This document shows, piece after piece, positions 16,214 to 18,116 of a DNA stretch of 54,014 bases. The DNA is from Aequorivita todarodis (GTDB lineage Bacteria; Bacteroidota; Bacteroidia; Flavobacteriales; Flavobacteriaceae). Location of the stretch: NCBI RefSeq assembly GCF_028561335.1, contig NZ_JAQQTG010000008.1, forward strand, positions 1 to 54,014, written 5' to 3'. A model generated the notes under the pieces. The model was not told the origin of the DNA. It saw only the letters and a list, made by a program, of their open reading frames with translations, and searched no databases. Position 1 is the stretch's first letter. Each line of letters begins with the position of its first letter. A program made the translations under genes and the position numbers.

Positions 16214-16255
16214 GTGCTCTACCATCCCGATAGCTATCGGGAGAGCTAAACCCGT
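16214..16255 (-). pseudogene. tRNA-Trp 5' fragment with a hairpin in the D-loop
   Basis: On the minus strand this reads as the tRNA-Trp 5' part ACGGGTTTAGCTC, then TCCCGATAGCTATCGGGA (16225-16242), then TGGTAGAGCAC. The intact gene has AGT where the 18-bp palindrome stands. The rest of the tRNA is missing. It lies 29 bp upstream of the intact tRNA-Trp. Confidence 0.85.
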
Positions 16256-16349
16256 TTCAATAATTCAGAATTATGAATTCAGAATTATGAAATATTATTC
16301 AGATTTAAAAATCAACAGATTGGTTAAACCCGCTATAAAAGTCAAGGTA

Positions 16350-16368
16350 TCCCGAAGTAAATTCGGGA
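16350..16368. repeat. TCCCGA...TCGGGA palindromic repeat
   Basis: The sequence TCCCGAAGTAAATTCGGGA has the same ends as the palindromes inside the tRNA fragments, but the flanks show no clear tRNA similarity. It lies 28 bp downstream of the tuf stop and could act in tuf mRNA 3' end formation. Confidence 0.7.
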
Positions 16369-16395
16369 CACCCAGAACTTTTGATTATATGATAA

Positions 16396-17583
16396 TTAAT
16401 CTAAAATTTCAGTTACCTGACCTGCACCAACGGTACGTCCACCTTCACGGATAGCGAAACGAAGACCTACGTTCATTGCAATTGGTTGAAGCAACTCAAC
16501 GTGGATAGTTAAGTTATCACCAGGCATTACCATTTCAACACCATCAGGAAGCATGATTGTTCCGGTTACGTCAGTTGTACGAACGTAGAACTGTGGACGG
16601 TAGTTGTTGTGGAATGGAGTGTGACGTCCACCTTCTTCTTTTTTAAGGATATAAACCTCAGCTTTGAATTTAGCGTGTGGAGTTACAGAACCTTTTTTAC
16701 AGATAACCATACCACGACGGATGTCGTTCTTTTCAATACCTCTCAAAAGGATACCTACGTTATCTCCGGCTTCACCTCTATCAAGGATTTTACGGAACAT
16801 TTCAACTCCAGTAATTGTAGAAGTCAATTTTTCAGCACCCATACCGATAATGTCAACGACATCACCCGTGTTTGCTACTCCTGTTTCGATACGTCCTGTG
16901 GCAACAGTACCACGACCAGTAATAGAGAATACGTCTTCAATAGGCATTAGGAAAGGCTTATCAACATCACGTGTTGGAAGTTCAATCCAGTTATCAACAG
17001 CCTCCATTAACTGAAGTACTGTATCAACCCATTTTTGCTCTCCGTTAAGTGCGCCAAGAGCAGAACCAGCAATTACAGGTCCGTTATCCCCATCATACTC
17101 GTAGAAGTTAAGAAGGTCACGGATTTCCATTTCAACTAGCTCAAGCAATTCCTCGTCATCAACCATATCCACTTTGTTCATGAATACAACGATACGCGGA
17201 ATACCTACCTGGCGGCCAAGAAGGATGTGCTCACGTGTTTGTGGCATGGGTCCGTCTGTAGCAGCTACAACTAGAATAGCACCGTCCATTTGGGCAGCAC
17301 CAGTAACCATGTTCTTCACGTAATCCGCGTGACCAGGACAGTCAACGTGTGCGTAGTGACGGTTAGCTGTTTGGTACTCTACGTGTGAAGAGTTAATTGT
17401 GATACCTCTTTCTTTCTCCTCTGGAGCGTTATCAATTTGGTCGAATGATCTGGCTTCCGAATAACCCGCATCGGCCATTACTTTGGTAATAGCTGCGGTT
17501 AACGTTGTTTTACCGTGATCTACGTGTCCAATTGTACCAACATTTAAGTGTGGTTTTGACCGATCGAATGTTTCTTTTGCCAT
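16396..17583 (-). CDS. tuf: Elongation factor Tu
   Basis: The 395-residue GTPase that delivers aminoacyl-tRNA to the ribosome. G1 is at 19-26 (GHVDHGKT), the switch-I threonine at 62 (RGITI), G3 at 81-85 (DCPGH) and G4 at 136-139 (NKVD). Domains II and III are complete and end [11 protein letters not shown]. It is placed between tRNA-Thr(GGT) and tRNA-Trp, the classic tufB position. A candidate promoter lies at 17609-17637. Confidence 0.99.
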
Positions 17584-17608
17584 TTTGTATTAATTTTAAT
17601 CTTAGTTA

Positions 17609-17637
17609 TAAATATATTAGTGTTACTTGTAATCAAA
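17609..17637 (-). promoter_or_regulatory. Candidate tuf promoter
   Basis: On the minus strand TTTG (17634-17637) is followed after 17 bp by TATATTTA (17609-17616), close to the TTTG/TAnnTTTG pair of Bacteroidota. The -7 end is 25 bp from the tuf ATG. The -33 box touches the tRNA-Thr fragment. Confidence 0.4.
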
Positions 17638-17682
17638 TTTGAGCCAATGATGGTCCCGACGCTTCGGGAGAACCCACGACCT
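17638..17682 (-). pseudogene. tRNA-Thr 3' fragment with a hairpin in the T-loop
   Basis: On the minus strand the sequence reads AGGTCGTGGGTTC, then TCCCGAAGCGTCGGGA (17654-17669), then CCATCATTGGCTC. The intact tRNA-Thr(GGT) reads AGGTCATGGGTTC-AATTC-CCATCATTGGCTC. Only the T-arm and 3' acceptor strand are present, with the T-loop interrupted. It lies between the intact gene and tuf. Confidence 0.85.
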
Positions 17683-17718
17683 AAATAATAAATTAAATAG
17701 GCACTGACAATTTCTTTG

Positions 17719-17790
17719 AGCCAATGATGGGAATTGAACCCATGACCTCTTCCTTACCAAGGAAACGCTCTACCCCTGAGCTACACCGGC
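17719..17790 (-). tRNA. tRNA-Thr (anticodon GGT)
   Basis: A 72-nt cloverleaf on the minus strand. The acceptor is GCCGGTG/CATTGGC with two G-T pairs, the anticodon arm TTTCC-TTGGTAA-GGAAG, and the T-arm TGGG-TTCAATT-CCCA. It is directly upstream of tuf, as in E. coli thrT-tufB. Confidence 0.96.
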
Positions 17791-17805
17791 GTTAATGGGT
17801 TTCAG

Positions 17806-17830
17806 CCCTTCGACTGCGCTCAGGGTGACA
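17806..17830. repeat. Imperfect palindromic dispersed-type repeat
   Basis: CCCTTCGACTGCGCTCAGGG followed by TGACA. I recognise this motif as a common intergenic repeat type in Bacteroidota genomes. It is found here between tRNA-Thr(GGT) and tRNA-Gly. Only one copy is in this window. Confidence 0.5.
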
Positions 17831-17894
17831 GTTCAAAGTTGCAAGTTTCAAGTTATTCCTATTAACCATTAACTATTAACCATTAACTCTTTAG

Positions 17895-17967
17895 AGCGGG
17901 AGACCGGGTTCGAACCGGCGACATTCAGCTTGGAAGGCTGACGCTCTACCAACTGAGCTACTCCCGC
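17895..17967 (-). tRNA. tRNA-Gly (anticodon TCC)
   Basis: A 73-nt cloverleaf on the minus strand. The acceptor is GCGGGAG/CTCCCGC with discriminator T. The D-arm is GCTC...GAGC and the anticodon arm TCAGC-CTTCCAA-GCTGA. The T-arm is CCGG-TTCGAAC-CCGG. CCA is not encoded. Confidence 0.97.
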
Positions 17968-18073
17968 AATTCTTCGAATAAATTCCAAAAACCAAATCCC
18001 AAAGGACTTAAAACCTATCTTAGAACCTAATCAAAACGTTTTCAATATTTTAATGAACTATTATTTTATCAAG

Positions 18074-18116
18074 GACGCTCTACCATCCCGATAGCTATCG
18101 GGAGAGCTACTCCCGC
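18074..18116 (-). pseudogene. tRNA-Gly 5' fragment with a hairpin in the D-loop
   Basis: On the minus strand it reads GCGGGAGTAGCTC, then TCCCGATAGCTATCGGGA (18086-18103), then TGGTAGAGCGTC. The intact tRNA-Gly has AGT in place of the palindrome. The 5' flank (AATT) also matches the intact gene. It is interrupted at the same D-loop position, with the same palindrome, as the tRNA-Trp fragment. Confidence 0.85.

Follow-up and report, generated by a model that had tools for sequence, protein, structure and literature searches.

Hairpin-scarred part-copies beside tRNA genes in Aequorivita and other Bacteroidota: possible relics of tRNA-targeting GIY-YIG elements

Beside tRNA genes of Aequorivita todarodis lie partial copies of the same tRNAs in which a conserved loop or arm is replaced by a short hairpin, and this arrangement is real and recurrent. 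In some relatives, such part-copies flank genes for DNA-cutting enzymes of the GIY-YIG type, which suggests that they are scars of selfish elements that target tRNA genes. We favor the reading that the fragments studied here are relics of small selfish GIY-YIG elements of this kind and lack the nuclease gene, and put its probability at about 0.42, short of even odds. The literature that we searched gave no description of the arrangement and no match to the exact 18-mer palindrome described below.

Part-copies and palindromes in the A. todarodis genome

We analyzed a window of 54,014 nt (contig NZ_JAQQTG010000008.1, positions 1 to 54,014). It carries, on the - strand, a tRNA array in the order Thr(TGT), Tyr, Gly(TCC), Thr(GGT), the EF-Tu gene (named from our reading of the sequence), and Trp. 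The features of this array are as follows.

16111..16184, - strand: intact tRNA-Trp (CCA) (ARAGORN; Rfam RF00005, 68.4 bits)
16185..16213, - strand: spacer from the Trp copy to the gene, with an inverted repeat of its own, AGATAAAT/ATTTATCT (by eye)
16214..16255, - strand: tRNA-Trp 5′ copy (acceptor 5′ strand and D-arm, to about position 27), upstream of the gene; composed of ACGGGTTTAGCTC + TCCCGATAGCTATCGGGA + TGGTAGAGCAC
16225..16242, unstranded: 18-bp palindrome TCCCGATAGCTATCGGGA in place of the D-loop AGT of the Trp copy
16350..16368, unstranded: 19-nt relative TCCCGAAGTAAATTCGGGA, part of a nested, terminator-like hairpin on the downstream side of the EF-Tu gene
17641..17682, - strand: tRNA-Thr(GGU) 3′ copy (T-arm and acceptor 3′ strand), downstream of the gene
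17654..17669, unstranded: 16-nt palindrome TCCCGACGCTTCGGGA, with the same arms, within the T-loop of the Thr copy
17718..17790, - strand: intact tRNA-Thr (GGT) (ARAGORN)
17894..17967, - strand: intact tRNA-Gly (TCC) (ARAGORN)
18074..18116, - strand: tRNA-Gly(UCC) 5′ copy, upstream of the gene; composed of GCGGGAGTAGCTC + the 18-mer TCCCGATAGCTATCGGGA + TGGTAGAGCGTC
18086..18103, unstranded: 18-bp palindrome in place of the D-loop AGT of the Gly copy
18334..18351, unstranded: third exact palindrome, between tRNA-Thr(TGT) and tRNA-Tyr, outside any tRNA copy

An earlier note on this DNA had described the 5′ copies beside tRNA-Trp and tRNA-Gly and the replacement of AGT by the same palindrome in both, and it was correct to the base. 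The 3′ copy of tRNA-Thr(GGT) is a mirror image of these two, with the hairpin in the T-loop. This copy goes beyond that note, as do the mirror rule, the tandem arrays, and the linkage, in some relatives, of scarred copies to GIY-YIG genes, all described below. The region at 16330-16380 (- strand), on the downstream side of the EF-Tu gene, is terminator-like, with a nested TCCCGAATTTACTTCGGGA hairpin, and a comparable one occurs in most of the congeners that we read.

We searched around every tRNA gene of the genome with k-mers and found part-copies beside 13 of the 35 tRNAs: Gly(GCC), Lys, Phe, Asp, Val(TAC), Gln, Ala(GGC), Pro(GGG), Arg(ACG), Leu(TAG), Trp, Gly(TCC), and Thr(GGT). Inspection by eye added Ser(TGA), Val(GAC), and an inverted copy near Arg(TCT). 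With few exceptions, a 5′ piece lies upstream of its cognate tRNA, and a 3′ piece lies downstream of it. The copies range from arms to whole genes; two full-length Arg copies carry hairpins in the D-loop, anticodon arm, and T-loop, a near-full copy lies downstream of tRNA-Val, and Leu has a tandem array of five units of ~57 nt. AGT is replaced in each of the D-loop copies of Trp, Gly (two), and Asp, and in three (Phe, Ala, and Thr) of the eight T-arm copies read the palindrome comes right after GTTC. Since the Gln copy, and Thr(TGT) copies in congeners, have another repeat, CCTGAGCGCAGYCGAAGGG, in the T-loop, the rule concerns hairpins, not one sequence.

Allowing up to 3 mismatches, the 18-mer was found three times in the window, against a mean of 0.00 in 100 shuffles. 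The exact 18-mer occurs 27 times in the 3.33-Mb genome and the looser pattern TCCCGA-N2-12-TCGGGA 72 times; the reversed control gave 0 in each case. According to the earlier note, the two D-loop cases would be coincidence if palindromes were not enriched beside tRNA fragments. They are enriched near tRNA genes: 15 of the 65 looser-pattern positions that were placed (from the total of 72) lie within 400 nt of one of the 35 tRNA genes, where 0.49 would be expected (binomial P, ~2e-18), with the proviso that tandem copies are nonindependent and that 4 of the 15 lie outside tRNA copies. The tie that the note had proposed between the palindrome and copies of the nearest tRNA held in this genome and in the genus, and the same build occurs elsewhere in Bacteroidota. 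Its proposal of D-loops as the target proved too narrow; T-loops and anticodon arms are also affected, and 54 of the 66 palindrome sites examined in the A. todarodis genome are outside tRNA copies altogether.

Palindromes of the same family lie inside RNase P RNA, 23S rRNA (the 19-nt relative), and a cobalamin riboswitch (L037 276-617, L056 1-820, L002 1393-1670). At L015 1501-1518, the exact 18-mer is in frame within an Mrp-like reading frame (PAVPIAIGIPENK; gene named by eye), where, compared with what we take to be the usual Mrp sequence, 18 nt seem to stand for 3. Because it occurs in RNase P RNA, a riboswitch, 23S rRNA, and reading frames as well, the palindrome is a dispersed repeat in its own right. 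A general preference of the palindrome for hairpin loops or flanking inverted repeats was not seen at the 54 non-tRNA sites, tested against 5,000 flank permutations (P, 0.35).

Distribution in the genus, family, and phylum

We compared the tRNA cluster of the window with those of 26 congeners, some of which end at contig edges. The Trp copy was found in 6 of the 26 congeners read, in some of them drifted; the match in one (G026) is identical to the sequence of Aequorivita vladivostokensis (L030). Across seven species the hairpin of this copy is largely kept, with 7 to 8 of 8 pairs in each. The 3′ copies of Thr, Tyr, and Gly vary in presence among congeners, and several are tandem, including arrays of three Tyr and three Thr units. 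On a tuf tree, the presence of the Trp copy is patchy. Its history needs 7 changes, at least 3 of them forced by well-supported branches, and 500 of 500 shuffles were as low. The copy may have an old origin followed by several losses, and tuf itself may recombine. In two stretches from species without the palindrome (L110 and L115), a Trp 5′ piece is followed by its partial inverse (GGTTTAGC...GCTAATCC), another form of hairpin upstream of tRNA-Trp.

We then tabulated 34 part-copies from the A. todarodis genome and the genus cluster of 26 congeners. The native loop of the matched arm is kept in 1 of the 34, in a table that takes 5′ ends upstream and 3′ ends downstream only, by 11-nt exact matches, and that includes some decayed hairpins; the unrestricted search covered the A. 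todarodis genome. Three copies were flagged as having a native loop, and two of these are artifacts in which the fragment runs into the intact tRNA. The one real exception is the Val copy, in which the anticodon arm is replaced instead.

A T-loop pattern applied to the genus gave 24 matches in 12 of 28 genomes and 0 in the control. Twenty of the matches share the strand of the cognate tRNA and lie downstream of it (4 of these judged by eye). The other four comprise two in a Cys array at a contig end, a degenerate full-length Val(GAC) gene, and an initiator-Met copy away from its tRNA. Judged by its sequence, the Val(GAC) gene, in genome G023 (center of L146), appears to be dead; it has the palindrome in its T-loop and a mismatched acceptor stem, and the stretch holds no intact Val(GAC).

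The corresponding D-loop pattern, run on a genome collection from which close relatives of the window's genome may be absent, gave eight matches on seven contigs, titled Bacteroidetes bacterium (three contigs from two isolates), Cyclobacteriaceae, Chitinophagaceae, Sphingobacteriaceae, and Aequorivita. For seven of the eight, a tRNA whose 5′ end matches closely follows downstream (Thr, Phe, Lys, Trp, Gly twice, and Thr); the remaining match is a Thr(CGT)-like gene of full length that carries the palindrome in place (L026). Since the D-loop and T-loop patterns fix the insertion point, these searches show recurrence and not free choice of site. A tandem pattern that allowed any insert of 8 to 38 nt matched in 3 of 28 congeners and in 1 of 395 phylum genomes, the window's own, and the exact D-loop pattern matched in 2 of 249 family genomes. 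This form is rare beyond the genus, and the case for its generality there is weak. The T-loop search of the phylum matched in 32 of 395 genomes; the reversed control matched in 10, once in each. Among 29 phylum T-loop loci, 7 have a match of at least 11 nt to an upstream tRNA on the same strand, and 14 have no tRNA in the stretch. One further genome, G427, has two tandem 5′ copies of tRNA-Met with spacers of 4 to 5 nt.

GIY-YIG genes joined to scarred copies

At the Phe and Val loci of A. todarodis, the tRNA is followed by a terminator, then the GIY-YIG gene, the hairpin-scarred copy, and a second terminator. We found a GIY-YIG frame joined to a T-loop copy at 5 of the 29 phylum loci (Val, Phe twice, Pro, and Asn), using a search model built from four GIY-YIG proteins of A. 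todarodis; one of the two Phe loci was paired with its tRNA by eye. A protein search of the family covered 60 genomes, 35 of which had a match, and yielded 30 loci including the A. todarodis Val locus. The GIY-YIG gene is joined to a scarred copy at 11 of these 30 and is unlinked to one at 19. An automatic search for 3′ copies over all 30 found 3 of the linked loci (L189, L191, and L193), and the other 8 were recognized by eye. Nine loci are of the 3′ type (Val three times, Arg twice, Asp, Asn twice, and Phe), one of the Arg loci (L194) being without an intact tRNA in its stretch. The two loci of the 5′ type, both Pro, have the reversed order of scarred 5′ copy, GIY-YIG gene, intact tRNA. In total, 17 loci in 16 genomes link a GIY-YIG gene to a scarred copy (mostly by eye, with the A. 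todarodis Phe and Val loci counted once), and an intact tRNA is present at 16.

Palindromes of the form [TC]CCCGA/TCGGG[AG] occur at 6 of the 11 linked loci versus 2 of the 19 others (P, 0.028). This contrast is circular in part, since loci entered the linked group on the strength of their scarred copies. Two linked loci, L190 and L203, have tandem units; at L203 780-1850 (G446), a scarred 5′ tRNA-Pro copy plus GIY-YIG gene is repeated three times in tandem and followed by an intact tRNA-Pro.

No GIY-YIG match was found in the window's contig. None was found near the seven D-loop loci, and no GIY-YIG frame lies between tRNA and copy at the genus T-loop loci analyzed. Among solved structures, none matched the sequence of the Val GIY-YIG protein at an E value of ≤0.01.

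Some GIY-YIG genes have other neighbors. L208, a GIY-YIG locus with four palindromes, was considered as a tRNA copy and rejected, being a separate 152-nt repeat. After several of the GIY-YIG genes in L197-L218 that are not linked to tRNA, inverted repeats follow (by eye), and some of these end in TGACA; this hints at a wider partnership of GIY-YIG genes and inverted repeats. On one A. todarodis contig (L089, C40), a CRISPR-like array of repeated units (AATATCGTGAATCC...CAAACCACAAC) adjoins a solo GIY-YIG reading frame. Another (L097, C38:15-143) has a truncated GIY-YIG frame at the contig end, by tRNA-Leu(TAA) and near Gly(GCC) with its 5′ copy.

Origin of the part-copies

The closest known parallel is SegB, a free-standing GIY-YIG homing endonuclease of T-even phages that cuts inside tRNA genes. 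Its motif RAWTSGAAC was present at 23 of 83 sites and is helpful though not strictly required, and tandem amplification of a tRNA segment needs SegB (PMC13096335). The reverse complement of the motif, GTTCSAWTY, fits the tRNA T-loop GTTCGAATC, and the Thr gene of the window reads GTTCAATTC, one base off. In the Phe, Ala, and Thr copies of A. todarodis, and in the T-loop copies found by pattern (the position after GTTC being built into the genus and phylum search patterns), the palindrome after GTTC replaces the next bases, so that the motif is gone. By analogy with SegB, this suggests that a cut was repaired with partial duplication, leaving a scar in the copy that could be spared. The likeness to SegB lies in GIY-YIG genes beside tRNA genes, seen here at A. 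todarodis Phe and Val and in some relatives though neither in the window's contig nor with D-loop copies, and in tRNA-containing units in tandem (Leu five times, Arg twice, Tyr three times, and Thr three times), although the latter also admit a cause without a nuclease. The two differ in that here the genomes are bacterial, some of the genes are joined to hairpin-scarred part-copies, gene-less units exist as well, and cutting is putative.

Relics of tRNA-targeting GIY-YIG elements could thus arise in four steps. A free-standing GIY-YIG endonuclease would cut a tRNA gene in a conserved loop or arm, as SegB does, its motif corresponding to the T-loop. Repair would then leave the partial tandem duplication seen in the anatomy of these loci; in such a duplication one intact tRNA survives, and what is left of the other copy is a 5′ piece on the upstream side or a 3′ piece on the downstream side. 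In the dispensable copy, a short hairpin, in many cases with TCCCGA/TCGGGA arms, would have taken the place of a loop or arm, at the positions we observe, and in part of the T-loop class the hairpin would serve to remove the cutting motif. Autonomous elements would keep the GIY-YIG gene by the scarred copy, and loss of the gene would give units like those of the window.

Several observations stand against this reading. The D-loop copies, the genus T-loop copies, and those of the window have no GIY-YIG gene, and most of the family GIY-YIG loci (19 of 30) are unlinked to a scarred copy. In several linked copies the hairpin lies away from the motif; L190, L193, L199, and L201 have an intact T-loop and the hairpin elsewhere. 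The intact tRNA should itself be cuttable. The tRNA-Met copies of G427 are separated by 4 to 5 nt, and the model does not explain where the hairpin comes from.

Some of these points count in favor of replication slippage or template switching at tRNA arms, close to an idea of the earlier note, by which part of a tRNA would be duplicated and the palindrome brought into the loop without any nuclease. The tandem units, the short G427 spacers, and the 57-nt Leu units are what such a process would leave, and it has no need of the GIY-YIG gene that is missing from D-loop and genus T-loop copies. However, TCCCGA-type arms recur in distant families (where the arms are part of the search pattern) and in GIY-YIG-linked copies of other genera. 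Since slippage does not supply these recurring arms, it is insufficient alone, and we regard it as unlikely. The dispersal of the palindrome raises a different prospect, that REP- or MITE-like palindromes fell into redundant part-copies left by earlier tandem duplication, with essential tRNAs showing them in spare copies only. The 72 looser-pattern copies, the 54 of 66 examined sites outside tRNA copies, and the palindromes in reading frames, RNase P RNA, the cobalamin riboswitch, and 23S rRNA all agree with this, as do the full-length tRNA-like genes Val(GAC) in G023 and Thr(CGT) in L026 that carry the palindrome in place; both tRNAs are dispensable by wobble rules. Random late insertion should nevertheless leave more native loops than 1 in 34, and in A. 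todarodis it would have had to replace AGT in each of the D-loop copies of Trp, Gly (two), and Asp. We consider it improbable as well.

It is very unlikely that the copies are working parts of tRNA precursors, either leader and trailer elements that steer processing or decoys for tRNA-cutting enzymes. The 5′ copies of Arg, Ser, and Gly(GCC) do lie between TAnnTTTG boxes (by eye), which we take to be promoter-like, and the tRNA, and conservation of the Trp-copy hairpin pairs in seven species would suit a function; against this, the Trp copy is patchy on the tuf tree. To see whether the hairpin might insulate tRNA folding, 11 precursors were folded with the hairpin or with native loop letters; acceptor pairing was clearly better with the hairpin in 4, worse in 1, and similar in 6.

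Other known systems resemble these loci in part. The Ssn family comprises GIY-YIG single-strand nucleases with a repeated site, the Neisseria NTS. Its members resemble the proteins found here in being short, and several of the non-tRNA GIY-YIG genes here are followed by inverted repeats (by eye); to our knowledge, tRNA part-copies have not been described for that family. The palindromic elements of Rickettsia are likewise inserted in reading frames and elsewhere; they are ~100 to 150 bp long, whereas the palindromes here are 16 to 19 bp. REP elements, which are associated with RAYT transposases, are short, many-copy palindromes tagged with GTAG or CGTC (PMC3733652). The A. todarodis genome also encodes Y1 transposases (PF01797; seven matches at an E value of ≤0.1, four marked over the cut-off), but its palindromes are tied to tRNA copies, and the tag is not the rule. 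GTAG and CGTC occur within 8 nt at 4 and 1 of 66 sites, against a background of 0 and 3, and at least two of the four GTAG cases are the GTAG of the tRNA D-arm. We rejected membership in the REP/RAYT system.

Relics of tRNA-targeting GIY-YIG elements might belong to something broader, a tRNA-parasitic homing family of Bacteroidota. A single-domain GIY-YIG enzyme would cut tRNA genes and leave one working tRNA, the displaced copy would be marked by a stem-loop inherited with the element, and gene-less satellites, among them the units of the window, would spread and expand along tRNA genes. We offer this broader proposal as a doubtful one.

If the relic reading is true, it explains the recurrent clutter of part-copies by Bacteroidota tRNA genes, it assigns a natural target to some chromosomal single-domain GIY-YIG genes, and the loci are dozens of natural records of cells that survived breakage of a tRNA gene. 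How short dispersed palindromes originate could then also be tested, since a single locus can pair one nuclease with one hairpin. Even without the link to a nuclease, the near absence of part-copies with a native loop needs explaining.
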